Below, piece after piece: positions 12,500 through 53,281 of a DNA stretch of 64,000 nucleotides. The stretch is taken from positions 22,438 to 86,437 of the forward strand of contig SVLM01000006.1 of the NCBI GenBank assembly GCA_015067945.1, written 5' to 3'. This DNA comes from Oscillospiraceae bacterium (GTDB taxonomy: Bacteria > Bacillota > Clostridia > Oscillospirales > Oscillospiraceae). Both the position numbers and the translations under genes were made by a program. The notes under the pieces are model-generated. The model ran no database searches. It was not told where the DNA came from and saw nothing but the letters and a program-made list of their open reading frames with translations. Position 1 is the first letter of the stretch, and every line of letters begins with the position of its first letter.

Positions 12500-12594
12500 T
12501 GCCATCGCTCCTTTTGGGATAGTGTCTTCCAAAACTTGCAAACTATGCAGCGATATGCTAGAATGAGAAAAATTCAAAAAAAGTTGGTACGTAA

Positions 12595-13926
12595 ATGAAA
12601 ATTCCACTTTCTGACCATTTTTCCTACCGCAAGCTGCTGCGATTTACCATGCCGTCGATCATGATGATGATCTTCATCTCCATCTATGGCGTGGTGGATG
12701 GCTTGTTTGTGTCTAATTACGCAGGCAAGGCATCTTTGACCGCCATCAATTTGGTCATGCCCTATATCATGATGTTCGGCAGCTTCGGCTTTATGCTGGG
12801 CACCGGCGGCACGGCACTGATTTCCAAAACTTTGGGAATGGGCGATTCGGAAAAAGCCAATGAAATATTTTCCATGCTTGCGGTGGTTTGTGTCATTGCC
12901 GGTGTTCTGCTGACGGCGGTAGCCATGCTCCTGCTCCGCCCGGTGGTGACTCTGCTGGGTGCGGAGGGGGAAATTCTGGAAAACTCCATGCACTATGGCA
13001 TGATCGTTCTGCCGGCCACCACCGCCTATATTCTGCAGTTTTCCTTCCAGAGTTTTTGCGTTACAGCGGAAAAATCCAATTTGTCTCTGACCATGACCGT
13101 CGTCTCCGGACTTTGCAATATTGCTTTGGATTTCTTATTTGTTGCGATCCTTGGATGGGGACTGCGTGGTGCGGCCGCCGCCACTGCTATTTCTCAGTTC
13201 ATAGGTGCAGTGATCCCGCTGGTCTACTTCTCCCGCAAAAATCCCAGCCTGCTGCGGCTGAGAAAATTCCGCTTCGACGGCAAAGCACTGCTCCGAGCCT
13301 TTACCAATGGCTCTTCTGAGCTGATGAGCAATCTGTCGATGAACATTGTGGCCATGCTCTATAATCTGCAGCTGATGCGTTATGCCGGTGAGGATGGTGT
13401 GGCGGCCTACGGAGTCATCATGTATGTAAATTTGGTGTTTATGGCCACCTTCATAGGCTTTTCCATCGGAACAGCACCCTTGTTTGGCTATAACCACGGT
13501 GCGAATAACGAATCGGAGCTGAAAAATCTGTTCCGAAAAAGTATAACGGTGCTGGCGGCTGCGGCGGTGGTCATGGCAACCTCTGCCATCCTGCTGTCGG
13601 GCACCCTGGCACGGCTGTTCGTCGGCTACGATGAGCACCTGATGACCATGACGGTTCAGGGCTTTATGATCTATGCCTGCTCGTTCCTGTTCAGCGGCTT
13701 TAATATGTTCGGCAGTGCCATGTTTACCGCCTTTAATAACGGACTGATTTCCGCTGTGATCTCCTTTGTGAGAACGCTGATCTGTCAAATCGCTGCGGTG
13801 CTGCTGTTGCCCTTGATCTTCGGCTTGGAAGGTATCTGGATGTCCATCGTAGTGGCGGAATTTACCGCCGTACTGCTGACGACCTGCTGCTTCGTGAAAT
13901 TCCGCAAACGCTACCATTACGCATAA
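12595..13926 (+). CDS. MATE family efflux transporter
   Basis: 443 residues with twelve hydrophobic segments in two six-helix halves, as in MATE multidrug or Na+/H+ antiporters (NorM/MepA-like). The first helix holds MPSIMMMIFISIYGVVDGLFV, typical of the family. Diverges from the bile salt hydrolase gene, so the pair may share a control region; a link to bile or drug efflux is inference. Confidence 0.9.
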   Translation: MKIPLSDHFSYRKLLRFTMPSIMMMIFISIYGVVDGLFVSNYAGKASLTAINLVMPYIMMFGSFGFMLGTGGTALISKTLGMGDSEKANEIFSMLAVVCVIAGVLLTAVAMLLLRPVVTLLGAEGEILENSMHYGMIVLPATTAYILQFSFQSFCVTAEKSNLSLTMTVVSGLCNIALDFLFVAILGWGLRGAAAATAISQFIGAVIPLVYFSRKNPSLLRLRKFRFDGKALLRAFTNGSSELMSNLSMNIVAMLYNLQLMRYAGEDGVAAYGVIMYVNLVFMATFIGFSIGTAPLFGYNHGANNESELKNLFRKSITVLAAAAVVMATSAILLSGTLARLFVGYDEHLMTMTVQGFMIYACSFLFSGFNMFGSAMFTAFNNGLISAVISFVRTLICQIAAVLLLPLIFGLEGIWMSIVVAEFTAVLLTTCCFVKFRKRYHYA

Positions 13927-21223: not shown

Positions 21224-24200
21224 TTATTTGCCCCAATTCCGGAGAATCTGACTTGTGACTTCTTCGCTAAAGGTTTTGGGCTTCTCACCCAGCTTGGTGT
21301 CCTCTTCCTGAGCATCCAGCACTCGCTGCCCCACCTGGGAGCTGTACGGATTGCTCTTTGCGTTTTTGCTGCCGGTTACTATCTGCCAAAGTGCGGCTTT
21401 CTGCTTCGTGGTGATATCCATCGCATCAATGGCAGCAGTGACCTCTGCCTGCGTATAGCTACCGTTGTCGTTGGCATCATACTGTCCGCGGATTTCATAG
21501 TAGCTAACATATGCATCCGGATCAACGCCAAACTTGCTGGCAAGCTCCGCCTTGTCATACTGTGACTCGGTCATGTTACCCTTGAGAGCGGCCAGCTGCT
21601 CGCTGGCCTTGCCGGAAGAATCCACGCAAGCCCGCCACCGCTGTACATAGGATACCTTGTCAGAACCTGCAGCCGGTTCTAGCCGATCGATCTCGGACAA
21701 AAGGTCGAAGGCTGTTTGATAGCCGACGCCTGCGTTGATCTGCTTGAGGAATGCTTTTGGATCAATTCCGGCCGCATAAACGTCCAGGTAATCGATCATA
21801 TCCAGTCCGGCTTCCTCGAATGCAGCAATCTTGTCCACATGACTGCTCTGCTTAGCACCATCAAACAATGCGTGTTTGGTCTGCTCCGCAGCATACTTAT
21901 ACAGCGTGCTCAGCATTTTAGCCTGCTGCTTTTGACCGGCCTTTTGGAATTGCTCCGATGCTACCAGTGCATCCAGTGTTTCCGATACCATGGACGCCCA
22001 AATGCTATCGTAGGATTGCTTTTGATAAGCTTCCAGCTCATATTCCTCGCCGTCGATGGTAAACTTCGACGGGGTATCACTGGGAACGACATTATCATAG
22101 CCAGCTTCATATAGTGCCGCAAGTGCCTGGGCGGTGCCGTCCGACCGACTGACATTGCGATTATCCAGAATGTTGCTTACGCGAATTTCCAGATCCATGC
22201 CGCTTATACCGGCGAGACTGCCCTTTGTGGCCGTAGCAAATACATCATCGTAGGCAGCTTCAAAACCCGGGATCTGCTTGACCAGACCGATCAGGTAGGC
22301 TTCCAAATTGGCCGCCGGCACACCGAGATAGCTCGCGATTTCGGTCGCTGCGTCTTTCAGCTCGCCCAGCAGATCATTTCCGTGACGGCGGAAGTACTCC
22401 CAAAGATCGCCTCCGTTTACTGCCACATTGATGCCGTCCGCAATCAAGTCTCTGGCTCCTTCCAGAACGTTGGCACCGAGGTTAAACAGATCCTGAAGCA
22501 GCGATACCTCCATGGACTCTACCTCATACCACTTCTCACCGGTCAGCTTTGCACCGATCATATCGGCAAGCTCTTCACCACCGACCATAATGCCTGCAAA
22601 GGACTTCAAAATATTCCCGGCGGCTTCTTCGGCAACACTGGCAAACGTAAGCTCTTCATCCTCGTCACGGTATTTCTTGCCCTTGTTTTTGATCAATGCC
22701 GTAATCAGGGCTACGCCTTCCGCAATCATAAAGTTGCTAAGGGCGGCCAGGACGACCGTGCCAACGGCTCGGTTCGCCTTCGCGGCAGCAGCTGTGCTAC
22801 CATTCTTTTTCTGGAATTGAGCTTCGCCGATCATTTGCCGTAAGGCGTTATAGGTTTGTGCGGAATCGCTTTTGAACATGGTGAACATTCGGACAAGGGG
22901 ATTCTTGCTTTTCCGCATAGTGCTTTGGTGCATCTGATCCGATGTAGACTGGCTTCTCGCCACAGCATTGTCGAATTCCTCCGCCACCTTCTTGTAGAAT
23001 GGACTTTCCCCGGCATTGATCTGCTCCTGCGTTCCGATCTCTAGCTCCGGATTCTCCCTGCGGACCTTGTTTTCCGCCCAGGGCCACAGGGTGCTTGCCG
23101 CCCAGGAGTCCATTGCAGTTATGGCACCGCCACCGAACAAGAACCTGGTAGCTTTGTTCGTTTGCGTCCAGTTGGGATTTTCCTTCAGCTGCTTGGTTTC
23201 CGGTGTGGAGTATCCAAGGCCTCGCCAGTCAAGCTCCTGGGTGTATTTCCGAATGAGATTCCGGTCAATCTCATGTACCTGCTTGATGCTTGGTGCATTT
23301 TTCATTCCCAGGTACACACCGGCCATTGGGATGGATCCCGTCTGCTTGAGAACGATGCTGAGATTTGCACCAAAGACTGACGAGATGTAGTTGCTCATCA
23401 GCTTCTCGACGCCTTTTTCAATGCCGGTTTTTTCTTCGACCTTGCCGCCCTGCAGATCCACCAGCAAGTTGCTGATGTACTTCTTGGCCTCTTCGCCCCA
23501 TTCATGGGTAATCACATCGCCCATGCTGTTATTGCTTTCCCGCCAGTTGATCAGCGTCTGCCAGTTGCGGGCGGGGATCGACATACCCACAAACCGGGCA
23601 GTCTGATCTGTGTTCCGTTCAAAGGCATCAAATGCACTGATGTTATAGCTGGGGTTCTTGGAATATTCTCTTGCCTTCAGGTTGCCAACGCCCTCGGCAG
23701 TCTGGTCAAAAATGCCGATTTCACTTTGCACGTAGTTTTGGTTGGTGAAGATCGGAGCATAAAACTTACCCATGGCCTTGTCGTAGCCGTACAGGATATT
23801 GGATACGCGGTTGATCTCCCGCTTGGAAAAATCATTGTAGAATTTCTCCAGGATCCCGGCCAGCTCCAGCTCTTCGGCAGTCATGTTCGACACAATGGCC
23901 TTGACCGTTTCCGGAGCCATGCGGATCGTGCGGCCCTGGGCGAATGCTTCCTTCCGCTTTCCCTTGCTGTAAAGCTCCTTGTCGGCAAACGTGCGGCCGC
24001 CGGCCATGTGCCGCAGGTTATCGGTGTTTTTGCTCTCCAGATACATATGCACCTTCTGTGCCGGTGTCATGTATACTGTCACAGTATCACCGAAAATCGG
24101 CTTGTCACCCTTGCCGAATTCCAGAAGCTCCGGCACTTCAATGGTGTACCAGATACCGTCCTTTCCTTGACCGTCTGCCTTCTTGACCCAATCGGCGTGT

Positions 24201-27200
24201 TCCGTGAGGAAGTCTTCCAGCATCCGGTTTGCCTTGACAGTGAATGCACGCATCTCCCGCTCGCCCCGCTCCAGCATCCTGGCCATGGAGTAGAATACAC
24301 TGTCCGGATTCCAGCCGGCCATCCGCTGCAAGAAATTCATGGGCGTCAGCTGCTCCATGTTGAACAGCTTGTCCAACATCTTTCCGGTATATCCGCCGGC
24401 GGCTGCTTTTAGTTCGCCCTTGGAATCCAAATACACCTCCGCGAACAGCCGGTTCATTTCGTCGTTGATCACATTGTTGCGGTTGTTAAACTCCGTTCGC
24501 AGACCCACGGCAGCACGGTACAAATTGTTCAGTGCATCCAGATCCATGTCAGCGATCTTCTGATCGTTCAGGCGGCTGACGATCATTTCCAATTCCTTAG
24601 AAGGCATGAAATTGGGGTCGGTGTCTTTGGCCTGCAGGTACATCTGTGCAAGATCCTTCCAGGTAGCACCGTACTTGTTGCTCCAATTCATTGCATTGGC
24701 AGCGCTCACAGCATAGATATCGATATCGCTGAGCACCCGGTCAAACTCTGCTCGCAGCTCTTCCGGAGCCCGGTACCGGTTCTTGTTCAGCCACTGCAGA
24801 GACTTCAGTGTTTTCTGCTGCAGCTCCTGCAGGGCTTTGCGTTCCTGCTGCTGGCGGCTGGCATCCTTCCGGTCCTGCCGTTCCTGCTGCAGCTGGATCC
24901 GCAGGCGAACGTTCTCCTTCGTGGTCGAAGCCTGATCGTTGACGGCTTTTTCCTTCAGCTTGATTTCAAGACCTGCTTTCTCTGCGAAAGTACGCAGTGC
25001 CCAGTCCATCTGCTTCTCCATACCGTCAAGCACATCGTCTTCCCGCACGTGGTCACGCTCAGCAAGCTGGGCAGTATACTCTGCCAGGCTGACATGTTCA
25101 TCTTTGCCATCCTCTGCCAGTTGCACGATTCGCTCCAGGATCTGCCGCAGCTGTGTGTCCTCCGCATCGAACATACCCGGCACCAGGTAAGAAAGGTCAT
25201 CGTTCCAGACATCGATGCCAGGATCTGCCCTGTTGTTTGTAAGATACACACCGGCAGCGAAAGCCCTGCGGCGAAAATCGTTCCAGTCGTCGCCAAAGTC
25301 AGCACGCATGCTGTCGTCCACATAGATCTTTCCCCGGACAACGGCACTTCGTCCCAGGGCGTAGTATTCATCCGCAGGGACGGTCATCATGCCTGCTTCG
25401 TACATCCGGTCGAAGAATGCCTTACGGTCTGCCTCCGTCAGCTGGCCGGATTCGATCAGCCGGTCGGCATAGCCATCGATTACTTTGCCGATCTCTGCCC
25501 GGCGGCCGTCCGGGGTAGAGAACAGGTTCATCAGCTGAATGCGAAGATCCTTTTTAGCCTGGGTCGGTTTGGAGGCTTCCAGCTTGTTCAGCCGCTGAGC
25601 GGCGTCGGCTTTACTCTCCCGGTACTCCCGCTGCAGCTTTCGCTTGTCGGCCTTGGTCTCACGCTTAGCGGCAGCCTCCTGCTTTTGCTCGGCCTTCCGC
25701 TGGTCTTCCTGCTGCTTCTGGTGCTTCCGGTACTCCGCCAGGCCCTCATCGCCCAACCGGTCCCGGAGCCAGGCATCCTTCCACCGCTGCTGCTCTGCAG
25801 CCAACTCCGCATTCACACGATCGAAGTCTGCCTCATCACCATCGTCTACCGAATAGCGAGCATCGGCATTCTCTTCATCGTACCGCTTAGACAAAGGGAT
25901 TAGTTCTCCCTGGTCATCATAGGTTATCGTAGAAACTTTTACGTTGTTGGCGGTGTTCTTGTAGATTTCATCAGTTCTACCATTGTCATATCCAAATTCA
26001 TGTATACTGTTCCCGTCAACAAACAGGTGTTTCGCTGGCACGCTTTGCGATACAATTCGATAATTACCATCAAAGTAATGATCGCCGTGCTCCTTCGCAT
26101 ATTCTCTGGTGGGGCTAACCCAGTCGCCGTTTTGCAATTTCGCTCCCTGAATATTGCTAGGAACAGCGCGATAAACGGTAACGCTGGCATCCGGCTTACC
26201 CATAGCTTTGGCAAATGTGTTTATTGCCTTAGAATCATAGGCTCTTCCTTCACCGTAGTATCGATGTGCCCATGGAGAATATATACTGCCATCACCTCCG
26301 TACATATCGTCAGCACGGTCAAGACTAACACCAGTGTCGCTGTTGGGCGCCTTATGTGCCATACGCCAATCACTTCCGGCGGTATATCCGACAAGCTTTG
26401 CCTTTTCTTGAAGCATTTTTTCAGCGGTGCTTGTGTTGCCCTGTTGAACAGCATATTCATACCGCATGTCACCTAAACGTTCAGAATCTTCTGCCAGAGC
26501 CTTCTGCTTTGCTGTCAGTTGATTGCTATTCAGCATCTGATCGGGAATGTACTTCACTAAGCCACCTGTTTCATCATTGACATTTGCAATCAAATCTGCT
26601 ACACTAATTACGGAAGCAGGGCGACTACGGATGCTAACACTGTCTACAGAGGCGGTGGAACCCCGTGGCGTGACCCCTGCTTCATTTTTTATTGTCACCG
26701 TAACATACAGCTTATTGCCAATCTCCGAATCAGCCTTATACTCTTTAACTTCCAATTGAACAGGTACATAACTATTGCCATCCCAGAACGCACCCAAAAG
26801 AACATGCATCTCTTTTAATCGATTGTCTGCTCTTGCAGTCTGTGCATATCGATCCGTATGTGCTTCTATCTCTGCAGCACTCTCGCATATTTCGGGCAGG
26901 GCGGTCAACATCTTTCCGAATATTTCAGCACCGCCACCTCGTTTGGCTTGTTTGCTAACGCTTTCCTTTAGCGACTTGTTGGAGTAAGAGAAAGATATAT
27001 CGACATCAGCATTGTGCAGATCAGATCGAAAATCACCACATTGCCTTGCTAACTCTGTCAGTAACGACCGTGCTTCTGTGACATACTTTCCTTTTAGTCG
27101 AATAATCTGAGGCCCCGTTATTGGACTGCTGTCATCATATTCAGGTGCGTAGATCTTCTTCTGTTTCAAAATGCTCGCACGCTGTGCTTCATCCATACCG

Positions 27201-30082
27201 GGGTAGATTTTGAGCTGCCCATCCTGGCTCGTTGCATCAACCGAATACCTCACACCGCCACCGACGGTGTTTTCTTTTTGCCAGCCCTCGGGTACCGGCA
27301 GCTTCAGACCGTATTGCTCCTTGAATGCCTGCTCATCATATTCCTCTGCAGAGTAATTGTCGGTCGGCGGGCCGGTGGACTCCCGGACACCGTTCTCCTG
27401 CACATCTTTGCGGGAGAGTCGGTTCTCGTCCAGGAATTGATTGACGGTATCCGTAAACTGTGTAGCACCGTTTCCCCAGGCGTTCATGCCGGCGTGAGCA
27501 TCCGCCAGAACTTCCTCGATGATCTGGCCCATCCGCCGCTGGAATTCCTGGCCGGATCTGGCACCGCTCACATCGATCACGTTACGCAGCGAAAGAATAT
27601 ACTTGTCCAGGACGGCATTAAACTCTTCTTCGCTGAAGGTCTGCTTGATCCGCTCCACGATGCTGTCATTCAAGCGGCTTCCGTACACATCGGACATACC
27701 GTGGTAACTTTCGTGATCGGCGATCTGCTCTGCAGTGTACTTCGGATGATCGGCTCTGACGATCATCTGCTCGCCGGTCTTAACGCCCTGCACCCGGAAT
27801 GTACCGCGGCTATTGGCACATTCGATAGGGCCAAGGACATATACGACCCGCTTGCCGGTTTCCTGATAGACCTGCTCGGCCTTGACACGCATACCCTCGT
27901 CATAGAGCTCCTGGGGGATCACCTTCAGATTTCCCCGGTCAGTACCTTCCGCAATGCCCAGGGAGGCGGCACTTACCGTCTGCCGTATATGCTTGCCAAG
28001 ATTGCCTCTTTCAATTTGCGTTCTTGCTCGGTCAGCTGCAGGCCCTCGCCCCGCTGCTGCCGTTCCTGTTCTGCCTGCCAGGCTTCCTGCCTGCTCTGCG
28101 GCACTCGGACTACCATCCCGTTGGCTGCTTCCATATAGTACACCGGCTCCTGTGCCGTCGTTGCCTGCGGCTGTCCGTTGGGATTGTTCGTGGGTAAGGT
28201 CATTCTGAATACCTCCATTCAAATTTTCTGCACGGTTGATGTTGGGAGTAAGCTGTTCTGTGATCTGCGGCACCTGTGCACGCTGCTCCGTGTTCTCCAC
28301 AGCGGGCAACTGTACCCCCGCCACCGGCTGTGTCGGGACTGTGCCGACACTTTCGGCCTGGCCGGGAATCAGCCCCGGCGTTGCAATTTCTCCGCCCGGA
28401 GCGGCATCCTGGCCCTCTGCGGGCTGCTGTGCATTCGGCTGATCCGTCTGCTGAGCCTTGTTGTTCTTCTGGCTGGCATCGTACTGGAGCTTCTGTACGG
28501 TACCGGTGGCACCGGCAGACAGACCGCCGGAGATAAAGGAAGTGATCGCCGTGTCGATGGCCTCCTGGGCCAGCTCCTTGTAGATGATCTTCCGGGCTTC
28601 CTCCCGGGAAACGCCTTTCTCAGCCATCACGTCCTGCATTCGCTTGTCGATGGTTTCTCCAGTGATCAGCGAGTCGGCCAAAATGCCGGCAACGAAGTTC
28701 AGCTCTTCTTCGGTCACCTCCACGCCGCCCTGGATTGCTGCGTTTTTCAGCACCTGCAGCCAGGTTTTTGGACTTTTCAAGGACAGCAGACTGTCCACGG
28801 AGTATTTCTCTGTAACCAACTCCAGACCACCCTTTGCAACTGCCGAAAGAAAAGCCTTGTCGGTGGTCACGCCTGCAGCAGATTTCGCTTGGAATTCCGA
28901 TTGTGCCGCGTCTATAAAGAACAGACCGCTGGCCAATGTCGATCCGCCACCAGTGAGGACTGCCGTGCCGATCTTCAGACCGCTGTCAACAGCGGAGTTT
29001 GCACCTTGGTAAAGAAAGCTCAGCACGTTCCGGGCATTTCTCCACCACTCCGGGTCATTTTCGTCGCCGGCAATGTTCTGTGCTACCGTCTGCTGTACGG
29101 TGTTGCCCCAGTCGCTGAGTGCAAAGCCGTCAGCATTGGCGTCTGCGACCTTATAGGCAGAAAGCCCCGTCGCACTGGTAAGCGTTTGCTTTAATGTTTC
29201 TGCCGCACCGCCGAAGCTGCCCAGGAATTTGGCCACCCAGCTCATGGGCGTTCCGGCAATAGCACCGCCCACAGAGTCCGCGAAACCAGCTGCGTCCGTC
29301 TTTCGCCGCTGGGCTTCGGTCTCGTCGTTGTAACGCACTAGCGTCTCTGCCAATTGGTAGATTTCCTGAAAAGAGTATCCTTTATTCGCAAGGGCAAAAT
29401 AGCCCTTATCGCTTGCGATGGAAGCTTTCCCTTCTACCGCTTTTGCATAGGCCTCCAGATTCTTCCTGTCCTCATCCGATAATTGCATGATTTCCAACAT
29501 TTTGGAATTATAGGTAATGCTCTCTTCCAGCTGTGTCTTGCTTCTTTCCAGGGCATCTACACGGTTGTTGATCTGCTGCAGTGCCTCATTGCGTCGGTTA
29601 AGTTCGGCTTTGTATTCGTCAGGACTAAAGCCGCCCAGGTCACCGCCCATCATGCCGGCATTGGCCAGCACCTGGTACTGAGCACCGAGCATTGTCTGCT
29701 CCTTTTTGGCCTTTTCCAATTCGCCGGGCAGATTCGCCAGTTGGGCTTTCAATTGATCGATCAACTGGGTCTGGCCGACAATCTCCTTGGATTTGGCATA
29801 CTTGGCATGACCCGTTTGGTAAAGCTGTGCTTGTTTCAGCAACCACTGGCTGGGGCCGCCTTGCTGCAGACTGGTCAGTACGTTGGGTTGCGTGGATTTT
29901 TGCTTTTCGGCCTGCTGCAGCAGCCACTGACTGGGAGCGGCTGTCTGCTGCGGCACATCCGTGGCTTGCGTCGATTCCGGTGTTTCCACCGGAATCTCTT
30001 TCTGTTCAGCGGGCATATCGCCGGATTGAAATTTCTTCGCCTGCTGCAGCAGCCACGGCGACACTTTATTTTGCACATCCAT
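21224..30082 (-). CDS. Giant polyvalent virion-type protein (2,952 aa)
   Basis: Last gene of the structural operon, probably an internal or ejected virion protein. Three SxWLL(Q/K)QA repeats open it (about residues 8, 51, 78). Hydrophobic glycine-rich segments follow (350-420), then a low-complexity linker (about 610-710) that hides a nested gene. An HExxH zincin motif (HESYH, 790-794) follows, then an ADP-ribosyltransferase-like domain (YRAVPS with R1305, a downstream SPTREYA, then IHEFGYD), long coiled coils (about 1450-1750), a helical domain with MFKSDSAQTYNALRQM (about 2400, LPD38-like) plus membrane helices, and an EF-hand-like DANDNGSYTQAE near 2895. Domain names are from motif reading. 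This matches large polyvalent proteins of Firmicutes phages. Start follows AGGAGGATGCAGT. Confidence 0.8.
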   Translation of the reverse strand: MDVQNKVSPWLLQQAKKFQSGDMPAEQKEIPVETPESTQATDVPQQTAAPSQWLLQQAEKQKSTQPNVLTSLQQGGPSQWLLKQAQLYQTGHAKYAKSKEIVGQTQLIDQLKAQLANLPGELEKAKKEQTMLGAQYQVLANAGMMGGDLGGFSPDEYKAELNRRNEALQQINNRVDALERSKTQLEESITYNSKMLEIMQLSDEDRKNLEAYAKAVEGKASIASDKGYFALANKGYSFQEIYQLAETLVRYNDETEAQRRKTDAAGFADSVGGAIAGTPMSWVAKFLGSFGGAAETLKQTLTSATGLSAYKVADANADGFALSDWGNTVQQTVAQNIAGDENDPEWWRNARNVLSFLYQGANSAVDSGLKIGTAVLTGGGSTLASGLFFIDAAQSEFQAKSAAGVTTDKAFLSAVAKGGLELVTEKYSVDSLLSLKSPKTWLQVLKNAAIQGGVEVTEEELNFVAGILADSLITGETIDKRMQDVMAEKGVSREEARKIIYKELAQEAIDTAITSFISGGLSAGATGTVQKLQYDASQKNNKAQQTDQPNAQQPAEGQDAAPGGEIATPGLIPGQAESVGTVPTQPVAGVQLPAVENTEQRAQVPQITEQLTPNINRAENLNGGIQNDLTHEQSQRTAAGNDGTGAGVLYGSSQRDGSPSAAEQAGSLAGRTGTAAAGRGPAADRARTQIERGNLGKHIRQTVSAASLGIAEGTDRGNLKVIPQELYDEGMRVKAEQVYQETGKRVVYVLGPIECANSRGTFRVQGVKTGEQMIVRADHPKYTAEQIADHESYHGMSDVYGSRLNDSIVERIKQTFSEEEFNAVLDKYILSLRNVIDVSGARSGQEFQRRMGQIIEEVLADAHAGMNAWGNGATQFTDTVNQFLDENRLSRKDVQENGVRESTGPPTDNYSAEEYDEQAFKEQYGLKLPVPEGWQKENTVGGGVRYSVDATSQDGQLKIYPGMDEAQRASILKQKKIYAPEYDDSSPITGPQIIRLKGKYVTEARSLLTELARQCGDFRSDLHNADVDISFSYSNKSLKESVSKQAKRGGGAEIFGKMLTALPEICESAAEIEAHTDRYAQTARADNRLKEMHVLLGAFWDGNSYVPVQLEVKEYKADSEIGNKLYVTVTIKNEAGVTPRGSTASVDSVSIRSRPASVISVADLIANVNDETGGLVKYIPDQMLNSNQLTAKQKALAEDSERLGDMRYEYAVQQGNTSTAEKMLQEKAKLVGYTAGSDWRMAHKAPNSDTGVSLDRADDMYGGDGSIYSPWAHRYYGEGRAYDSKAINTFAKAMGKPDASVTVYRAVPSNIQGAKLQNGDWVSPTREYAKEHGDHYFDGNYRIVSQSVPAKHLFVDGNSIHEFGYDNGRTDEIYKNTANNVKVSTITYDDQGELIPLSKRYDEENADARYSVDDGDEADFDRVNAELAAEQQRWKDAWLRDRLGDEGLAEYRKHQKQQEDQRKAEQKQEAAAKRETKADKRKLQREYRESKADAAQRLNKLEASKPTQAKKDLRIQLMNLFSTPDGRRAEIGKVIDGYADRLIESGQLTEADRKAFFDRMYEAGMMTVPADEYYALGRSAVVRGKIYVDDSMRADFGDDWNDFRRRAFAAGVYLTNNRADPGIDVWNDDLSYLVPGMFDAEDTQLRQILERIVQLAEDGKDEHVSLAEYTAQLAERDHVREDDVLDGMEKQMDWALRTFAEKAGLEIKLKEKAVNDQASTTKENVRLRIQLQQERQDRKDASRQQQERKALQELQQKTLKSLQWLNKNRYRAPEELRAEFDRVLSDIDIYAVSAANAMNWSNKYGATWKDLAQMYLQAKDTDPNFMPSKELEMIVSRLNDQKIADMDLDALNNLYRAAVGLRTEFNNRNNVINDEMNRLFAEVYLDSKGELKAAAGGYTGKMLDKLFNMEQLTPMNFLQRMAGWNPDSVFYSMARMLERGEREMRAFTVKANRMLEDFLTEHADWVKKADGQGKDGIWYTIEVPELLEFGKGDKPIFGDTVTVYMTPAQKVHMYLESKNTDNLRHMAGGRTFADKELYSKGKRKEAFAQGRTIRMAPETVKAIVSNMTAEELELAGILEKFYNDFSKREINRVSNILYGYDKAMGKFYAPIFTNQNYVQSEIGIFDQTAEGVGNLKAREYSKNPSYNISAFDAFERNTDQTARFVGMSIPARNWQTLINWRESNNSMGDVITHEWGEEAKKYISNLLVDLQGGKVEEKTGIEKGVEKLMSNYISSVFGANLSIVLKQTGSIPMAGVYLGMKNAPSIKQVHEIDRNLIRKYTQELDWRGLGYSTPETKQLKENPNWTQTNKATRFLFGGGAITAMDSWAASTLWPWAENKVRRENPELEIGTQEQINAGESPFYKKVAEEFDNAVARSQSTSDQMHQSTMRKSKNPLVRMFTMFKSDSAQTYNALRQMIGEAQFQKKNGSTAAAAKANRAVGTVVLAALSNFMIAEGVALITALIKNKGKKYRDEDEELTFASVAEEAAGNILKSFAGIMVGGEELADMIGAKLTGEKWYEVESMEVSLLQDLFNLGANVLEGARDLIADGINVAVNGGDLWEYFRRHGNDLLGELKDAATEIASYLGVPAANLEAYLIGLVKQIPGFEAAYDDVFATATKGSLAGISGMDLEIRVSNILDNRNVSRSDGTAQALAALYEAGYDNVVPSDTPSKFTIDGEEYELEAYQKQSYDSIWASMVSETLDALVASEQFQKAGQKQQAKMLSTLYKYAAEQTKHALFDGAKQSSHVDKIAAFEEAGLDMIDYLDVYAAGIDPKAFLKQINAGVGYQTAFDLLSEIDRLEPAAGSDKVSYVQRWRACVDSSGKASEQLAALKGNMTESQYDKAELASKFGVDPDAYVSYYEIRGQYDANDNGSYTQAEVTAAIDAMDITTKQKAALWQIVTGSKNAKSNPYSSQVGQRVLDAQEEDTKLGEKPKTFSEEVTSQILRNWGK
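27973..28203 (-). CDS. Nested small gene inside the giant gene (76 aa)
   Basis: Same strand as the giant gene but another frame. ATG at 28203 has a GGAGG 8 nt upstream; stop TAA at 27973. The protein reads MTLPTNNPNGQPQ..., then EPVYYMEAANGMVVRVPQS, AWQAEQERQQRGEG and LTEQERKLKEAILASIYG. It matches the C-terminus of the gene at 60160-61086 at 47 of 57 residues, and 21 of 31 differing codons are synonymous in this frame. That shows the frame is or was under selection. Function unknown; the motif looks like a small helical phage protein. Confidence 0.72.
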   Translation of the reverse strand: MTLPTNNPNGQPQATTAQEPVYYMEAANGMVVRVPQSRQEAWQAEQERQQRGEGLQLTEQERKLKEAILASIYGRR

Positions 30083-35524: not shown

Positions 35525-37987
35525 TTATTCCTCCTTTAGCGAAATAATGTAGATAGGAACACTGGGAATAGTGATGTTTTGGTAGGGAATCGAATACTGA
35601 ATGGTAAGGTCACCCCTGCCAACATAGGAAGCCGTACCGCCGGAACTGTCCGCAATCATTAAATCCTTGTTGTCCTTTACGCCATACGCCAATACTGCGT
35701 GGCTGGCAGGAGCAGGCATGCCAACGAAAACATACTTGCCTTGTGCGATAGCATCATACACGGCCTGCAGTTCTGTCTGTCCATAGTTTGTGTATGTGGT
35801 ACAACTCAAACCGAGAGCTTCACACAAACCCGGAACTTCTGGAATCTCACCTTTACGGTCTTCGTAAACAGCAGAAAAGGCATCACGACCTGCTTCGCCG
35901 ATGATTTCCATAAATTCATCAACCGTGGAAAGAGTCAAATTATGCAAGGCACAATATGCGTGCATAACAGTGAACAACAAGCAGCCATCTCTGTATTTAT
36001 GGTCTGTGTTACCGATGGATTTGTCTGCCCATCGGGGGTCGCTCTGGGCAAGAAAAGTAGGCAACGGATTTTCCTTTGCTGTAACCGTGCAATCGCTCCA
36101 AAAGTCAGTGGTGTGTCCGTAAAAGATAGCCCACGGACTATGCAATCCGCTGCAATTAAATGAGTACGTGTCAACTATTGCATTGGCCGGAAAATCAACC
36201 TTGTTAAGCCGCAGGGTTTGTCGCAGAGCATATTGCTCAATAATGGCTACATTTGCACCACCCTTAATTCTGGACAGCGTACTGCATCCAGCAAATGTGC
36301 TATTGAGAATTTTGGTTACATTTCCGATATCGGCATACTTCAAAAACGGGCAGGTGTTAAATGCCGCCGTACCAATAGTAGTAAGGTTCGGGCATTTGAT
36401 TTTTTCCAAGCTGACGGATTGGAATGCCACCATACCGATTTTTTCAATCTGTTCGGTGTTGTAGATGTTCTTCAAATTGATTGCGTAGTCACAGAATCTG
36501 TCGGGGATTTCTGTAATACTATCGGGCAAAGTCAGGTTTTCCACGGCACTATTCCGCATAAACATACCGGGAGCAAGGCTGACAACAGCAATCTCATCCA
36601 CCACTTCGGGAATGACAAGGTGCTTCGGCAGTTCCGCATTTCTGCTACCAGCCGCGCCCAATCCGTTGTCGCTGATAGCGTAGGTAAACGTGCTATTAGC
36701 GGCAGGGCAAGCACCACGATATTCCGGCTTCAGCGAAAGCACGCCATCGTCCGTGATGGTGAAGTAGGTTGCGTGAATATCGGGATCATTGGTTATGCCG
36801 ATATTCTTCCTTGCCTGTGCCTGCTGTTCCTCGGAGAAGTTTTGCTCCTTGCAGGACACCGCACTCTCCTCCATCTGCAACAGCTCCTCCCGGAGGGTGT
36901 CGTAGAAGACCAGCTCGCCAACGAATTGGACATCCTCGTCGTCAAAGATATACAGGCCGGAATCCACGTCCCGTTCAGTACAGCCGGGACGTGCCTGCAG
37001 CCAGTCCACCTCCATGGCTACATTGCCGGTGGGATACTGCAGAGCAGCCGAGTCCGTGAGCTCTTGAATATGGACGACGATCTTCTCGCCCGGAGCAAAC
37101 CATCTGCCTATATCCAGCTCTACCTGTAGCTGTCCTGCAGGCGGATCATCTACAAATGTCGCAGCAATGGGGTCCGCATTCAGATCCACAGAGTTGAAAA
37201 GCTTAATGTAGATGCCGTCGCAGATGCCGCTCACCGTCACCGGAAAGCGGACCTTCTCCAGATACCGGGGAGATCCAACCACCTGCAGGCTGGTGGCATA
37301 CATCGCCACCGCCTCCTCCGCCACCCCACCGGATCGGCTGATGGTCAGCGGCCGAGCACCGATCTGATCGCCGGGTTCTCCTTTTTCTCCCTGCGGTCCC
37401 TGAGGACCTTGTCTCCCTTGGGCCCCGCGAGGTCCTACATCTCCCTGGGGGCCTGCCGGTCCGGGAATTCCTTGAGGCCCCTGTTCACCCTGAGGTCCTT
37501 GCGGGCCGGAAGGGCCGGCAAGAGACTGCAGCCATTCGTCCATGGTTCCCACGAATCCTCGCATCACCGCTAAGCCATAGGCGGTAATGTAGTACGACGG
37601 TACGCCCGGAGCACTCTGCGGATCCCGTCCGCCCCGGCCCTGGGCAGGTGTGTACACACGGGCAAACCACCGCACGAAATTGCTATAAGCTTCGTTGTAC
37701 TGGATCATGGAGTTTTGGTATTTGTCGTACTCACCGTTGGTCATGTCGATTTTTGCTTCCAGCCATAGGCCGTAAATTCCGTCGTGAGGGAACCGAACCA
37801 GCAGCTGTGTATCTGCGTGCTCCGGCCACGAATAGCGGAGCTGCTCTGTCTCGCAGATGTCCATCAGAAGCACATTTACGGCAAGCATGCCCTCCAGCTC
37901 CGCGATCCAGGCCACCTTCTGCTCAGCGGTAAACGCATTGGGCTTTCTTGCATCCACCCTGTCCAGCACTTCTTTGATCGTGCTCAT
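35525..37987 (-). CDS. Receptor-binding protein with collagen, LRR and C39-like domains
   Basis: 820 residues. The N-terminal 150 residues are a virion-attachment domain. A collagen-like GPQGPQG tract (about 157-206) follows, then beta-rich modules, then BspA-type leucine-rich repeats (about 460-630; [17 protein letters not shown] and similar). The end is a C39-like papain fold (about 645-815): [12 protein letters not shown], Cys in [14 protein letters not shown], His in [10 protein letters not shown] and IADSSGG. It probably recognises and perhaps processes host surface proteins. The LRR/C39 half is visibly more AT-rich than the rest, suggesting module exchange. Confidence 0.78.
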
Positions 37988-48753: not shown

Positions 48754-49176
48754 TCATTCTCCTTTCGGCGGTTCAGGCAGGGGCAAGAGTACGGGTGTCC
48801 AGTGTGTGATTTCTTCGTCCTCGGCATCCCAAAATTCTGCATCGCAAGTCCACTCAAAACCATCCCAAATTGCCGTCAGCACTTTACGCCCGGTGGTTAG
48901 CACATTCACAGCTTCGGAATACGCAGTTCCTGCGTTACACGGAATGAGATTCGGCAATCCTTCCGCCACGCTTATCCACTTCGGGGTTGCATCCGCTTTA
49001 CCTTCGATATACCCGACGGCATATTGTTGCCTGTCATATCGCAATGCCCGGAGCAGTTCTTTCTTATCTACCTTAATGCCGACATTCACAACGGCTTTGA
49101 AGATTTGATCTTCCTCCGACTGAACGATCTGTGTATGAATATCTTCTGTAAGGATCTCGATAGGCGACTTATACAT
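48754..49176 (-). CDS. DUF551-containing phage protein
   Basis: 140 residues. The C-terminal half is a DUF551 domain: WISVAEGLPN, the central AIWDGFEWTCDAEFWD and ITHWTPVLLPLPEPP. Common in phage early regions, unknown role. ATG 49176 follows GGGAGGGATGACA. It starts 8 nt inside the reverse transcriptase gene end. Confidence 0.75.
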   Translation of the reverse strand: MYKSPIEILTEDIHTQIVQSEEDQIFKAVVNVGIKVDKKELLRALRYDRQQYAVGYIEGKADATPKWISVAEGLPNLIPCNAGTAYSEAVNVLTTGRKVLTAIWDGFEWTCDAEFWDAEDEEITHWTPVLLPLPEPPKGE

Positions 49177-50209
49177 TGTCATCCCTCCCTAAAATCTTTA
49201 GTACTCTCTCATCCATTGCTTTTCCCAGGTGGTAGCAATTACCGTGAGAGATGTGGTTCTTCCAGGCGCCGTAGGATGCCCGGAACTTCTCTGCAGGCAG
49301 CTTGCCCGCCACCACTAGCTTTGCCATGCGGGTATATTTCTTCTGGGCATTGCGTTTCTTTTGGTTGCTCAATTTGCGGATTGGCGTCCCATCTGCGGTG
49401 ATGTAGGTATGAAACCCAAGGTAACTAACGCCATTCTTGAAGGGGAATATCTGCGTCTTGCCATTTAGCTCCAGCTCCAGGGTTTCCAGATACGCCGTGA
49501 TCACCTCCAGGCAGTACTGCAAATACGCCTTGCTAGGATGGATCAGCCAGAAATCGTCCATGTACCTGCCATAATACTCAATTCCCAGCTGGTGGACGAT
49601 CAGCTTGTCCATGCCGTCCAGGTACAGCAGGGCAAAGCCCTGGTTGATCTGATTACCAAGCGGTATGCCCTTGCCCTCTGTGCTGTCAATAAACAGATCG
49701 CAGAGCCAACACACATCCGGATCGTACCCGAAATGATAGTGCACGATATCCTTCAGCTGCTCATGGGATATGCTGTAAAAGAATTTCTTGATATCGCATT
49801 TAAGGATATATCCATCCATGCCGTACCGGCTGTAGAACGCCTGCATTTGCTCGCTGAGCCGGTCAAGCCCGAACAGAGTACCCTTGCCCTTCTGCCCGGC
49901 ACAGTTGTCATAGACGAAGATCCGCTGCATACGAGGCAGCAGTACATTGTCACACAGGCAGTGCTGTATGACCTTATCCTTAAAAGACGAGGTTTGAATA
50001 ACACGCTCCTTCGGCTCATACACCTTGAACTCCGCATATCCGGATACCCGGTAGGTCTTATCCTTCAGCTGAGCGATCAGAGTGTTTACGCCGTCCAGTG
50101 CTGCCAGGTTAAACCGGGCGGCACTTTTCTTGTAGCCTTTGCCGCATTTTGCTTTACGGAATGCCCGGTACATATTATGAAAATTCGTTACTTTCTCGAA
50201 GTCGGTCAT
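49169..50209 (-). CDS. DGR reverse transcriptase
   Basis: 346 residues. Group II-like reverse transcriptase: motif A ILKCDIKKFFYSIS (D139), motif 4 GIPLGNQINQ (181-190) and catalytic YMDD (216-219). DGR enzymes usually show (I/V/L)GxxxSQ in motif 4; here the Ser is Asn. There is no maturase or endonuclease domain, so it is not a group II intron. It lies directly after the template repeat, the Avd-like gene and two variable-repeat targets, which fixes its role: error-prone copying of the template, with mutations at adenines, for retrohoming into the variable repeats. Confidence 0.95.
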   Translation of the reverse strand: MTDFEKVTNFHNMYRAFRKAKCGKGYKKSAARFNLAALDGVNTLIAQLKDKTYRVSGYAEFKVYEPKERVIQTSSFKDKVIQHCLCDNVLLPRMQRIFVYDNCAGQKGKGTLFGLDRLSEQMQAFYSRYGMDGYILKCDIKKFFYSISHEQLKDIVHYHFGYDPDVCWLCDLFIDSTEGKGIPLGNQINQGFALLYLDGMDKLIVHQLGIEYYGRYMDDFWLIHPSKAYLQYCLEVITAYLETLELELNGKTQIFPFKNGVSYLGFHTYITADGTPIRKLSNQKKRNAQKKYTRMAKLVVAGKLPAEKFRASYGAWKNHISHGNCYHLGKAMDERVLKILGRDDNV

Positions 50210-50312
50210 ACAGCATAGCCCTCTTTGTTTATCCTCTCGGAAAGGTTGTGCGTTCTTTTGGTGTGGTGTATGGATTTCGGCTGATGCCTACTCTGTCGAA
50301 CGGTCCACCAGT

Positions 50313-50384
50313 ACGGGCGAACGCCATTGTCGTTGTTGTTGTAGTGGTTGTTGTTGATGTTGCCAGACGGCGAAACACAAAGGA
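50313..50384 (-). other. DGR template repeat (TR)
   Basis: 72 bp between avd and reverse transcriptase genes. On the minus strand the 36-nt core is nearly all AAC triplets (reads GNINNNHYNNNDNG). Coding-strand adenines occur only in this core: 20 of them. The flanks, ACGGGCGAACGCCA on one side and CCAGACGGCGAAACACA on the other (plus-strand reading), are identical in both variable repeats. The transcript of this region would be the mutagenesis template. Confidence 0.95.
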
Positions 50385-50410
50385 AAAATACAACGCACAG
50401 CCTGTGGCAC

Positions 50411-50779
50411 TTACTTTTGCTCGCTTTTTCTCCAGCCAAGTGCCAGGTATTTCACATCCGTAACCATCTTCGACCAGTATTCTGCTGACTTATCGTTCAG
50501 CAGCTCCAGCATCATCGACAGCTCTATGTAAAACAGCAATTCGTCACAGAGAGTTACTGCCCGGGTGATCATCTCGCACCGTTCCCGCTTGTGGGTCACA
50601 TTGTGGATGCGGTTTGCCTCAAGCAGGGTTTCGTAGATATCCATGCTTTTGGTCTGCATGCGGTCAACCAGGGAATGACGGAACTTCTTTGGATATCGGT
50701 TGCAGTTGGATGTGAGCTTGAAGGTATGAACCGCAAGATCTTTCGCCTTGACGATCACCTTCAAATCATTTTCTGCCAT
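50411..50779 (-). CDS. avd: DGR accessory variability determinant (Avd-like)
   Basis: 122 residues, basic and all-helical, as expected for the four-helix-bundle Avd that binds the reverse transcriptase and template RNA in BPP-1-like systems. Size (BPP-1 Avd 128 aa) and position, between target gene and template repeat, agree. Hydrophobic heptads are visible (KAKDLAVHTFKLTSNC, TLCDELLFYIELSMML, YWSKMVTDVKYLALGW). It starts 3 bp after the stop of target 1, so it is translated with it. Confidence 0.82.
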   Translation of the reverse strand: MAENDLKVIVKAKDLAVHTFKLTSNCNRYPKKFRHSLVDRMQTKSMDIYETLLEANRIHNVTHKRERCEMITRAVTLCDELLFYIELSMMLELLNDKSAEYWSKMVTDVKYLALGWRKSEQK

Positions 50780-50782
50780 AAT

Positions 50783-51352
50783 TTAGTTCTCCGAAGATTC
50801 AAAGATAGAAGAATTGAAGATCAAAAACGGGCGAACGCCAACGTCGAAGTTGCCGCAGTGGAAGTAGTTGAAGTAGCCAGACGGCGAAACACAAAGGATC
50901 CACTTAGGCACGGAGTGAGGCTGTGCGGACTCCGGTGTGGCCAGCCACCACCATTCGTCCACCTGGTACTTGTCGAAGATCTCCACGTGCTCCCGGTAGA
51001 AGTCCAGGGTGGGCAGGCTGATCTTGGACTCCATCACACCATAGGGCTTCAGACCGTCCAGGGCGGTGAGATCCGTCTGGAAGGTCAGGACATTTTCCTC
51101 ACCGATCGCTTCAATGATCTTGGGCAGGATATCCTGCTGCATCTTCTTCAGCACATCGCTGCACCGCAGATCGTCGCTATCACCGAACCGGGAACAGAAT
51201 GCGATATCACGCATGACTACCAGAGTCTTACCGTCCACGCTGGGGAACTTGATAAACTCCATGCCGGCGAGCTGGAAAATCTCACCGTCCTTTATGCCGG
51301 GGAAGCTGGGTACCTTGGGCGTGCTCGTGGCCTTGGTTTCTGTGGTTTTCAT
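50783..51352 (-). CDS. DGR target protein 1
   Basis: 189 residues, no signal or membrane segment. The C-terminal two-thirds resembles target 2 (FGDS, DGLKPYG, WWWLATP, CVSPSG) and is of the DUF6273/C-type-lectin-like kind used by DGR targets. Variable repeat 1 encodes about residues 152-176, just before the conserved GVRPF, and exposes Tyr, Phe and Asn at the mutable positions. The N-terminal 40 residues differ from target 2. Ligand unknown. Confidence 0.9.
   Translation of the reverse strand: MKTTETKATSTPKVPSFPGIKDGEIFQLAGMEFIKFPSVDGKTLVVMRDIAFCSRFGDSDDLRCSDVLKKMQQDILPKIIEAIGEENVLTFQTDLTALDGLKPYGVMESKISLPTLDFYREHVEIFDKYQVDEWWWLATPESAQPHSVPKWILCVSPSGYFNYFHCGNFDVGVRPFLIFNSSIFESSEN
50827..50898 (-). 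repeat. DGR variable repeat 1 (VR1)
   Basis: Aligns without gaps to the template repeat (offset 514 bp). Twelve differences, each at a template adenine (coding strand); no other base differs over 72 bp. Confidence 0.95.
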
Positions 51353-51366
51353 TGTTATTTCCTCCT

Positions 51367-51975
51367 TTATGCAGATACAAAGATATCAGATTTTAAGATG
51401 CAAAACGGGCGAACGCCACCGCCGAAGTTGATGCAGTGGCCGCTGCTGATGTTGCCAGACGGCGAAACACATTTTACCCAGTTGGCATTTTCATGGGTAG
51501 GTGTGCTGTCTGCTGTAGCCAGCCACCACCAATCATCGGGCTTGTACTTGTCCAGGGTGTAGACATATTGACGGTATCGGTCCGCAGTCAGCAGGGATGC
51601 AAACCGCTGCACGGAGCCGTAGTCCTTCAGACCATCATCTGCAGTCAGATCCACATCGTGCAGGATCATATTGTCCTCGCCGACGATTTTGGCCAGCTTG
51701 GTGGCAAAGTCGTTACAGATCTTGTCCACCTTGGAGCCGTCGTAGTTATTGCTGTCACCGAAGGTGCTGGTATCGACGAAGTCCTTGCAGATCAGCAATG
51801 TGCCTTCGTCGGTGTGGTCCAGGACGATCATTTCATACTCACCGATCTTGGCGGTGTCACCCGCCACCTTATTGCCTAAGCGAATGGCCTTAACCTGCAG
51901 GCCAGCCTGGATCTGCTCAACCTGCTCCGCCGTCAGCTCAATCTGCTGACCGTTGATTACAATGTAGTTTTTCAT
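51367..51975 (-). CDS. DGR target protein 2
   Basis: 202 residues. It has an N-terminal small domain (MKNYIVINGQQIELTAEQ) and a C-terminal domain homologous to target 1 (FGDSNNYDG, DGLKDYG, WWWLATADS, CVSPSG). Variable repeat 2 codes for about residues 169-190 and ends at GVRPF. No secretion signal. It is the first of the four-gene DGR operon; SD AGGAGGAACATAGC. Ligand unknown. Confidence 0.9.
   Translation of the reverse strand: MKNYIVINGQQIELTAEQVEQIQAGLQVKAIRLGNKVAGDTAKIGEYEMIVLDHTDEGTLLICKDFVDTSTFGDSNNYDGSKVDKICNDFATKLAKIVGEDNMILHDVDLTADDGLKDYGSVQRFASLLTADRYRQYVYTLDKYKPDDWWWLATADSTPTHENANWVKCVSPSGNISSGHCINFGGGVRPFCILKSDIFVSA
51405..51471 (-). repeat. DGR variable repeat 2 (VR2)
   Basis: Aligns to the template repeat at offset 1092 bp. 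Eleven differences, all at template adenines. Identity stops at 51471, a few bp earlier than in VR1. Confidence 0.95.
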
Positions 51976-51997: not shown

Positions 51998-53281
51998 CTA
52001 TTGTTTTTTGCTTGTAAAAAGTGAAAGCTGCTCCACGGCTTCAGCATTCCGCTTTTCCTCGATGTACAGCCAGGGCTTTTGCCACTTGACGCCGATATAG
52101 TCCAGCACCCGTCCCCAGCCGTACCACTGACCTTCTTTGTCCTGCATCACGTGGGTCATCCAAAACTCCCACTCCTTGGGATTACGCTCCCATAGGAGAT
52201 CAAAGCGGTGGGGTCGCTCTTCTTTGTGAATACCAAAACCGCACATAGAGCAGCCGGTTCGCTGAGCATCCCGGGTCTGAAGCTGCCCCTTTTCATCCTC
52301 GTAGATTTCGCCGTATATTGTCGGCACGATAGTATCCAAATGGATCGGGTCGCCGTACTCCACCGTGCCGTCCTCGTTCTCCTTGACGATCGGGCGGAAC
52401 TCTTGCCAATGTTTGTGATACCAGGCATCCATTTCCCGTGCCAGCCGCAGCAGATCATCCCGAAGAAAAGTGGCAAAAGGGCATGATCGGCGAGTGTTTT
52501 TGCTGATATAGTTACAGCCGTTTATAGCAAGGGCTTTTTCCCGGCGTCCTTTTTCGGAAGCCATTAAACCCATGTAGGGCCAACGGCCTGTGCTGCGGTG
52601 ATACAGATCGCATGGCAGCTCTTTTAGCCAGTAACAGCACAGATCGGACACTTGCACCGGAGCTTTCTGATAGCCAAGCTTAGCACCTTCCTCGTCGGCA
52701 CCGCCAAATAGCTTCAGCCATTTCTTGGGGAGCTGCATGCGAGAGTTTTCCCGCCATCCGCCCTGGGCTCCGGTCTCGCCGGTGATGATTGCGTGACGCA
52801 CCGTCACATTATCCTCGGTAGGATGGTTCAGAGTATCGATCTTGCCGGCGATCTCCTTGGAGATTACAGGCCATCCGAACTTCTGGATCACCGCGATCTT
52901 TGATTTTAGCGGCTTCAGTGGCTTAACTCCCAGGGCCTTATGCACCTTCTGTATGCTCTTGTCCTCCAAGCTGGATACAGAAACTGCAGGCACATCGATG
53001 CCAATTGAGCGGAGAAACAGGAATAATGTAATGCTGTCCAGACCACCTACTGCTACATAGCACTGACCGTCCACATCAATGTTCTTATAGAACTCCCACG
53101 CCAGATTGACTGCCCTGGATCGCTTCGAGCTGTACGGCTCCTGTTGATTCTTTTTGAATTGCTCGATCCTGGCATCATTCTCGATCTTCTTTTTGAGATA
53201 TTCATACTGCTCAAACTCTCGCTCGGTCAGATGATTCTTGGCTTCCAGCTCTTTCAAACGGTCAAGATCTTTTTGCGTCAT
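51998..53281 (-). CDS. PAPS-reductase-like PP-loop protein (IbrA-like)
   Basis: 427 residues. The adenine-nucleotide PP-loop reads YVAVGGLDSITLF, where PAPS reductases have SGGKDS. There is a Cys cluster, CSMCGFGIHKEERPH, near residue 340 and a further CxF motif in RRSCPFATF. Its start overlaps the end of the ParB-like gene, a pairing known from IbrA-IbrB in E. coli and from many phages. A sulfur- or nucleotide-modification role is possible; not proved. Confidence 0.8.
   Translation of the reverse strand: MTQKDLDRLKELEAKNHLTEREFEQYEYLKKKIENDARIEQFKKNQQEPYSSKRSRAVNLAWEFYKNIDVDGQCYVAVGGLDSITLFLFLRSIGIDVPAVSVSSLEDKSIQKVHKALGVKPLKPLKSKIAVIQKFGWPVISKEIAGKIDTLNHPTEDNVTVRHAIITGETGAQGGWRENSRMQLPKKWLKLFGGADEEGAKLGYQKAPVQVSDLCCYWLKELPCDLYHRSTGRWPYMGLMASEKGRREKALAINGCNYISKNTRRSCPFATFLRDDLLRLAREMDAWYHKHWQEFRPIVKENEDGTVEYGDPIHLDTIVPTIYGEIYEDEKGQLQTRDAQRTGCSMCGFGIHKEERPHRFDLLWERNPKEWEFWMTHVMQDKEGQWYGWGRVLDYIGVKWQKPWLYIEEKRNAEAVEQLSLFTSKKQ

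Follow-up and report, generated by a model that had tools for sequence, protein, structure and literature searches.

Few known systems diversify the proteins of phages and bacteria as powerfully as diversity-generating retroelements (DGRs). The DNA analysed here (the window) is a stretch of 64,000 nucleotides (nt) of contig SVLM01000006.1 from an Oscillospiraceae bacterium. Judged from its sequence, it very probably carries, within a prophage, a DGR made of two tandem target genes (T1 and T2), an accessory gene (avd), a template repeat (TR) and a reverse transcriptase (RT) gene. The closest described systems are found in the gut phages nd12 and nd4 (PMC10743442), whose RTs are 53% and 43% identical to the window RT. 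The accessible text of that report describes one TR with two targets, as in the window, and target2 is a single-domain DUF6273 C-lectin like T1 and T2 (T1 identity is 37% to nd12 and 30% to nd4). A to C changes at the second A of AAC are rare in both phages, as they are in the family of window relatives assembled below, and the nd12 spacer between TR and RT keeps GAGTAGGCA..AGCCGAAA as the window spacer does (read by eye). The two phages differ from the window in that one target is a tentaclin with immunoglobulin (Ig)-like domains and its variable repeat (VR) lies near the 5' end of the gene, whereas in the window both targets lack Ig domains and are tandem paralogues placed immediately before avd. 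The tentaclin layout given there (N-terminal C-lectin, Ig-like domains, C-terminal anchor) was not found in the window targets, which are 202 and 189 amino acids (aa) long, carry the VR C-terminally and show no Ig domain in Pfam or PHROGs scans.

The Faecalibacterium prophages Lelie, CP11, Roos and Pioen, as far as the available text goes, also have DUF6273 targets whose VR sits at the C-terminus of that domain, with one or two VRs (PMC11792537). Lelie and CP11 have a large and a small DUF6273 target, a gp105-like N-terminal domain is reported in Pioen, and variation among reads was seen in Roos and Pioen. The Lelie RT is 37% identical to that of the window. Two-target DGRs with a DUF6273-type domain are therefore already published, and the window element joins a known kind. 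More distantly, phage BPP-1 (mtd, avd, TR, brt; NC_005357) has the same target-avd-TR-RT order, an RT with 27% identity over 333 columns and an Avd of similar fold. It differs in having one target (Mtd), a TR of 134 bp against about 70 bp here and a spacer of 144 nt against 103 nt. Four details of the window family go beyond the accessible text of the papers compared: a portable cassette with sharp homology edges, a covarying stem that brackets the TR, a bias at the second A of AAC, and length differences between VR and TR. Literature searches, which were not aimed at every such report and mostly did not cover subscription journals, gave no account of a TR-bracketing stem or of the cassette in unrelated phages.

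An earlier note on this DNA, made from the sequence alone, had proposed a complete DGR in a leftward operon. All of the parts were found where it placed them, on the minus strand and transcribed in the order T1-T2-Avd-TR-RT (Table 1), and the RT, Avd, one TR and two A-restricted VRs were each identified. The family search proposed for the RT gave phrog_1423 (E 6e-107, a family named merely 'Reverse transcriptase'), and the best PDB match was 8ub7, the DGR RT of BPP-1 (E 2e-26; next best 2e-06). The RT is assigned to the DGR class on these family and best-match searches. It scores below the curated cut-offs of TIGR04416 (72 of 300 bits), Drt3a (61 of 200), Drt2 (34 of 390) and retron St85 (29.5 of 235), so that a group II intron, retron or defence RT is not indicated by the curated families. 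LGxxx(S/N)Q is the DGR-type RT motif. The accessory protein matches phrog_3206, 'Avd protein of DGR' (E 2e-22), and its predicted fold resembles 4dwl, as looked for in the Avd of a DGR. T1 and T2 are 42% identical over 165 columns (BLASTP). T1 is modelled as a C-type lectin-like fold, the fold looked for in a DGR target; its sequence had no match in the PDB.

Table 1. Coordinates of the DGR cassette features in the window
Feature	Positions	Strand	Basis
Ribosome-binding stretch before T1; upstream edge of DNA homology to relative L077	51976-51989	minus	blastn extent
T1, target gene 1, 202 aa, stand-alone C-type-lectin-like protein (DUF6273-like)	51367-51975	minus	
VR of T1, 67 bp	51405-51471	minus	11 differences from TR, all at TR adenines
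T2, target gene 2, 189 aa, T1 paralogue	50783-51352	minus	phrog_9958 (E 4e-30); BLASTP to T1
VR of T2, 72 bp	50827-50898	minus	12 differences from TR, all at TR adenines
Avd, accessory protein, 122 aa, predicted four-helix bundle	50411-50779	minus	
Upstream stem arm AGGCTGTGCGTT	50392-50403	minus	Covariation over 30 elements
TR, 72 bp	50313-50384	minus	Repeat alignment
Spacer from TR to RT, conserved, non-coding, RNA-like	50210-50312	minus	Alignment; weak Rfam RT-2 similarity
Downstream stem arm AACGCACAACCT	50243-50254	minus	Covariation over 30 elements
RT, 346 aa, YMDD intact	49169-50209	minus	phrog_1423; Pfam RVT_1; PDB 8ub7; BPP-1 Brt

Each target gene has its VR at its 3' end. The difference counts of the earlier note (its VR1 lies in T2, its VR2 in T1) were reproduced exactly, and all 23 TR-VR differences in the window fall on TR adenines. 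Under a random model the chance that every difference falls on the 20 adenines is 8e-9 for the 72-bp repeat and 1.3e-7 for the 67-bp repeat. Read in the TR frame, the 36-nt core contains 12 codons, eight of them AAC or AAT, and no stop codon is reachable through changes at A. The core does hold the 20 adenines that the earlier note had counted. Its figure of about 10^12 variants survives only as a nominal upper bound (4^20 = 1.1e12 sequences, at most 6.6e11 proteins), because A to C is strongly depleted, with none among the 23 window changes and 31 among 545 pooled family changes. A scan of the 1.97-Mb genome bin of the host for the core with A replaced by any base (up to three mismatches) found only these three copies, and the reversed control found none. 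A remote third target is possible since the bin is only 82% complete. A Pfam DUF6273 search of the same genome for extra targets gave no match and is uninformative, as T1 itself scores just under the cut-off; since the model also misses T1, the pattern scan is the valid test.

The A-restricted pattern was then followed in relatives. Scans for related loci (given L numbers here) yielded 57 loci on viral contigs and 374 on genome contigs, of which 80 were kept. With a family cut-off of at least 56% RT identity, 42 of the 57 viral and 15 of the 80 genome loci were included, plus stretches from the genus; 11 of 136 genus genomes, the window's own included, encode a relative at E 1e-20 or better. 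Not all family loci hold a TR, and once loci sharing their TR and VR sets with another had been dropped, 32 elements remained, including the window. In gap-aware counts over 58 TR-VR pairs from these 32 elements, 629 changes lie at A and 20 elsewhere (eight of the 20 from L091). The gap-aware motif missed two VRs (L020 in T1 and L048 in T2), which were read separately to give 60 pairs. The earlier note had named differences at non-adenine positions in other strains as the finding that would speak against a DGR. Here related elements, not strains of a single phage, were compared. Within fixed columns 13-70, the 52 distinct ungapped pairs (29 elements, the window among them) differ at 560 of 1029 A, 7 of 1013 C, 11 of 531 G and 11 of 443 T sites, for a non-A total of 29 of 1987. 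Score-chosen segments, which favour A changes, gave 545 of 999 A against 11 of 2415 non-A sites in 50 of the 52 pairs (two pairs below 55 nt were dropped). Three duplicate pairs were left out of the pooled counts (L014, L021 and L034 repeat L041, L022 and L035). An A-dominated pattern is thus shown in the sequences of 31 other non-redundant elements. Two targets are present in 28 of the 31 elements with enough upstream sequence; L016 is truncated. In the single-target relatives L018 (the same element as L044), L029 and L039, the target is T1-like in sequence and lies directly before avd.

The residues encoded by the VR are also the most diverse part of the target protein. Among 114 T1 homologues (120 matches listed of 2431), the seven most variable positions all lie within residues 175-186, which are encoded by TR adenine codons, and the flanks of the VR-encoded residues change little.

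A second conserved feature is an RNA structure around the TR. AGGCTGTGCGTT before the TR pairs with AACGCACAACCT after it, giving a 12-bp stem that brackets the template. The stem was aligned from near the avd end to the RT start in 30 of the 32 elements (the more distant L043 and L045 were left out). Six of the 12 pairs change on both sides, four are invariant and two vary on one side; 95.0% of the cells are paired, and there are 18 distinct arm pairs. Columns 32/193 are unpaired (C-A) in 17 of the 30 elements including the window. For the whole tested structure (the stem and three short hairpins, 22 pairs), 24 double-sided cells were counted against 4.8 +/- 1.7 in shuffled alignments (0 of 500 as high) and 0 to 7 in slid ones. 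The shuffle result is not a probability, because related sequences were used and the window itself supplied the structure. Covariation supports pairing of the putative TR transcript across the TR, and the stem would likely define the ends of the template. According to the accessible part of PMC12875486, the BPP-1 spacer is where the RT-Avd complex is recruited and cDNA is primed. The window spacer, which retains the element visible also in nd12, matches the Rfam RT-2 RNA (RF03077) at 50171-50305 over the full model (1-222, spacer and RT start) with 23.2 bits and E 0.012. This is below the gathering score of 40 bits and does not place the spacer in that family.

We propose that the RT, likely together with Avd, would copy the TR transcript into complementary DNA (cDNA) with errors at A; the transcript would pair across the TR through the 12-bp stem. 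As in the BPP-1 system, the RT-Avd complex would load on the spacer and prime there, and the cDNA would replace a VR. The variable ends of the two tandem lectin-like genes would be overwritten in this way, which would likely alter what T1 and T2 bind. It appears that each VR is rewritten on its own, that the RT rarely incorporates G opposite the second A in AAC, and that the cassette may pass between phages as one block.

Several results weigh against parts of this explanation; those on virion attachment and on current activity are given with the alternatives they favour. The window Avd sequence had one PDB match below E 1 (0.12), which was not an Avd, and its profile had 14 such matches, none of them an Avd. 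A profile comparison with BPP-1 Avd fails at the sequence level. An Avd in the PDB was found by fold comparison alone, with a fold score barely above that of unrelated helical bundles. The TR-spacer RNA of the window is no more stable than shuffles in single-sequence folding (z 1.30), and the duplex score of the TR flanks is not significant against mononucleotide shuffles (0.490). When BPP-1 and nine other DGRs were put through this duplex test, the fraction of shuffles at least as good was 0.307 for BPP-1 and 0.043 for the best (L051). A 12-nt complementary pair in L074, seen by eye, was not significant either (0.150). Single-sequence folding and duplex scores do not separate the stem from chance; only covariation does. 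In addition, no BPP-1-like stem-loop was recognised 3' of the VRs when stretches at and after 26 VRs from 13 elements were folded. A short GGC-N4-GCC at the VR end was the sole common hairpin by eye, and that helix has no double-sided change.

The least certain part of the explanation is the role of T1 and T2 as virion binding tips. The window holds a prophage. Its internal-virion, endolysin, tail-fibre-like, head, portal and terminase genes occupy about 31-45 kb; a replication initiator is found at 45.4-46.2 kb, a ParB-like gene at 53.3-54.7 kb and a large serine integrase at 61.1-62.8 kb. The left part of the window has host-like metabolic genes. With the cassette between the replication initiator and the ParB-like gene, T1 and T2 are outside the head and tail gene block, and Pfam and PHROGs scans recognised no virion-attachment domain, Ig domain or other anchor domain in either. 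The targets may instead act elsewhere, for example as free proteins or on the lysogen surface, and the cassette may be a virion-independent module. This alternative is possible, but we consider it doubtful. It fits the different genes found beside the cassette. Among 21 loci (open reading frames (ORFs) of at least 80 aa; at most 6 kb of flank per side, with 2.2-6 kb upstream), 283 of 420 ordered pairs share no flanking ORF at E 1e-5 and none share half. The best terminase and portal matches are phrog_2 and phrog_156 in the window but phrog_9 and phrog_12 in its closest relative, L077. On the other side, a signal peptide is not apparent in T1 or T2 by eye (no predictor was used), T1 has a weak similarity (E 2.8e-6) to phrog_10993, a Hoc-like head-decoration family, and gut-phage DGR targets with this domain are regarded as receptor-binding in the accessible text of PMC10743442.

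The flanks also bear on how the cassette spreads. The window and L077 have 0 of 14 flanking ORFs in common while their cassettes are 83% identical over 2803 columns; the DNA homology starts 14 nt ahead of T1 and stops 42 nt short of the RT frame end. The window flanks have two ORFs in common with L019, one with L087 and none with the other 17 loci. The cassette of L078 lies near recombination genes. A DNA-level search of a phage collection with the whole cassette gave no match. Transfer of the cassette as a block is suggested because the flanks mostly differ and the homology edges are sharp. Some relatives come from goat, sheep and roe deer gut, and the L077 contig belongs to G019, a genome of the same genus; the host is presumably a ruminant-gut Oscillospiraceae. 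We offer a wider reading tentatively, as a conjecture that could well be wrong: T1-T2-Avd-TR-RT would be a self-contained, virion-independent binding-tip cassette that moves as a gene-exact block, reaching from the ribosome-binding site of T1 almost to the RT end, among phages with unrelated structural genes. Its AAC-biased RT would enrich Tyr, Ser, Gly, Asp and Phe in two anchorless lectins, its TR would be closed by the stem, and slippage in AAC runs would add variation in loop length.

The changes at adenine are not uniform. In the 50 pairs there are 297 changes to G, 217 to T and 31 to C. At AAC, A to C makes up 28 of 218 changes at the first A and 1 of 180 at the second. Reconstituted BPP-1 differs: there, G is often placed opposite an A that precedes C (26.8% in NAC, in the accessible part of PMC12875486), an error that yields A to C and is almost absent in the window family. 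One explanation of the near-absence at the second A is that Thr, Pro and Ala are selected against in the binding site. Among 296 AAC codons Thr and Pro are indeed absent and Ala accounts for 0.3% (a count that includes the three duplicate pairs). Serine, however, is accepted, and among 326 AAY codons it is written 41 times as AGY and never as TCY. A bias of the enzyme appears to be the better reading of these sequences, because synonymous serine codons should not differ under amino-acid selection. The selection explanation is unlikely. In a set of elements with distant RTs (49 pairs from 49 loci), 15 of 164 changes at the second A are to C (p 1e-4 against this family), and serine is encoded 66 times by AGY and seven times by TCY (p 0.048). 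Four of these loci are near-identical contigs whose VRs differ, and a few of the pairs are weak and were not checked individually. The AAC bias is thus partly shared and is stronger in the window family. The choice between enzyme bias and selection is left open for related phages in the available text of PMC10743442, and the synonymous-codon test helps to separate the two.

VR and TR are of equal length in 49 of the 60 pairs; the VR is one codon longer in nine, two codons longer in one and one codon shorter in one (L048, T2). The 11 unequal pairs are spread over 8 of the 32 elements. Except in L091 and in T2 of L048, the extra codon fits into the A-rich core next to AAC codons and leaves no more than one non-A mismatch. 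Either the TR changed in length after the last writing of the VR, or copying altered the VR; slippage in AAC repeats has been mentioned before (PMC12875486, accessible text). The two VRs of an element likely changed independently, because only one of them differs in length in L015, L045, L082 and L089 and the two differ in opposite directions in L048.

The earlier note had taken the differences as a sign of past and perhaps current activity. Past activity is borne out by the A-restricted VRs. Current activity found no backing, since VRs are identical within nine pairs of near-identical contigs of this family, which may not come from independent animals. In a distant DGR (RT 35% identical; L054:2154-2908, L055, L057, L058: 5095-5849), VRs differ at 2-23 positions between near-identical contigs, with 2-21 of the differences at TR adenines and at most two not at A; the TRs are identical and there are 0-1 differences over 600 downstream bases. 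Those differences are a natural record of recent activity. Because VR change was found there, the near-identical-contig comparison can detect activity, which makes the identical VRs of the window family a point in favour of a DGR that was once active and is now dead. The A-restricted differences would then be a fossil, with the genes maintained or drifting without retrohoming. The 8 of 32 elements with at least one VR not of TR length agree with such an account, as some VRs either escaped overwriting after a change of the TR or changed alone. A dead element is nonetheless very unlikely: the RT, Avd and both targets are open, YMDD is intact, the stem and spacer are strongly conserved, and the VR-encoded residues are the most diverse of the protein family between flanks that change little. 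That the TR and VRs are ordinary duplicated gene ends, with A-only differences due to chance or to selection on Asn codons, has next to no chance of being right: T1 and T2 are paralogous and repeats can stem from duplication, but the A-only differences in the window alone are improbable under the random model, the RT and Avd are co-located, and the A dominance repeated in the pooled relatives refutes it in practice.

Other genes of the window were noted. The gene at 51998-53281 (minus strand, 427 aa), beside T1, has no family match in Pfam, PHROGs or NCBIfam, and a 77% identical relative lies upstream of the L019 cassette. A PAPSR-like label for it found no support in these databases, so that the gene was left unnamed. 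A tail-fibre-like gene at 35525-37987 (minus strand) has a collagen repeat and a BspA-type leucine-rich repeat region and is possibly a second, non-DGR binding protein. The ORF at 21224-30082 (minus strand, 2952 aa) has as its only PHROGs match a ParB C-terminal domain (residues 1234-1370) and no Pfam match. A choloylglycine (bile salt) hydrolase family gene lies at 11513-12607 (minus strand), left of the phage genes.

The family described here gives 32 non-redundant natural elements of a DGR, in which error spectra and RNA structure can be read from sequence alone. Another question it poses is how phages that differ in their virion genes could make use of lectins in which no anchor is recognised.

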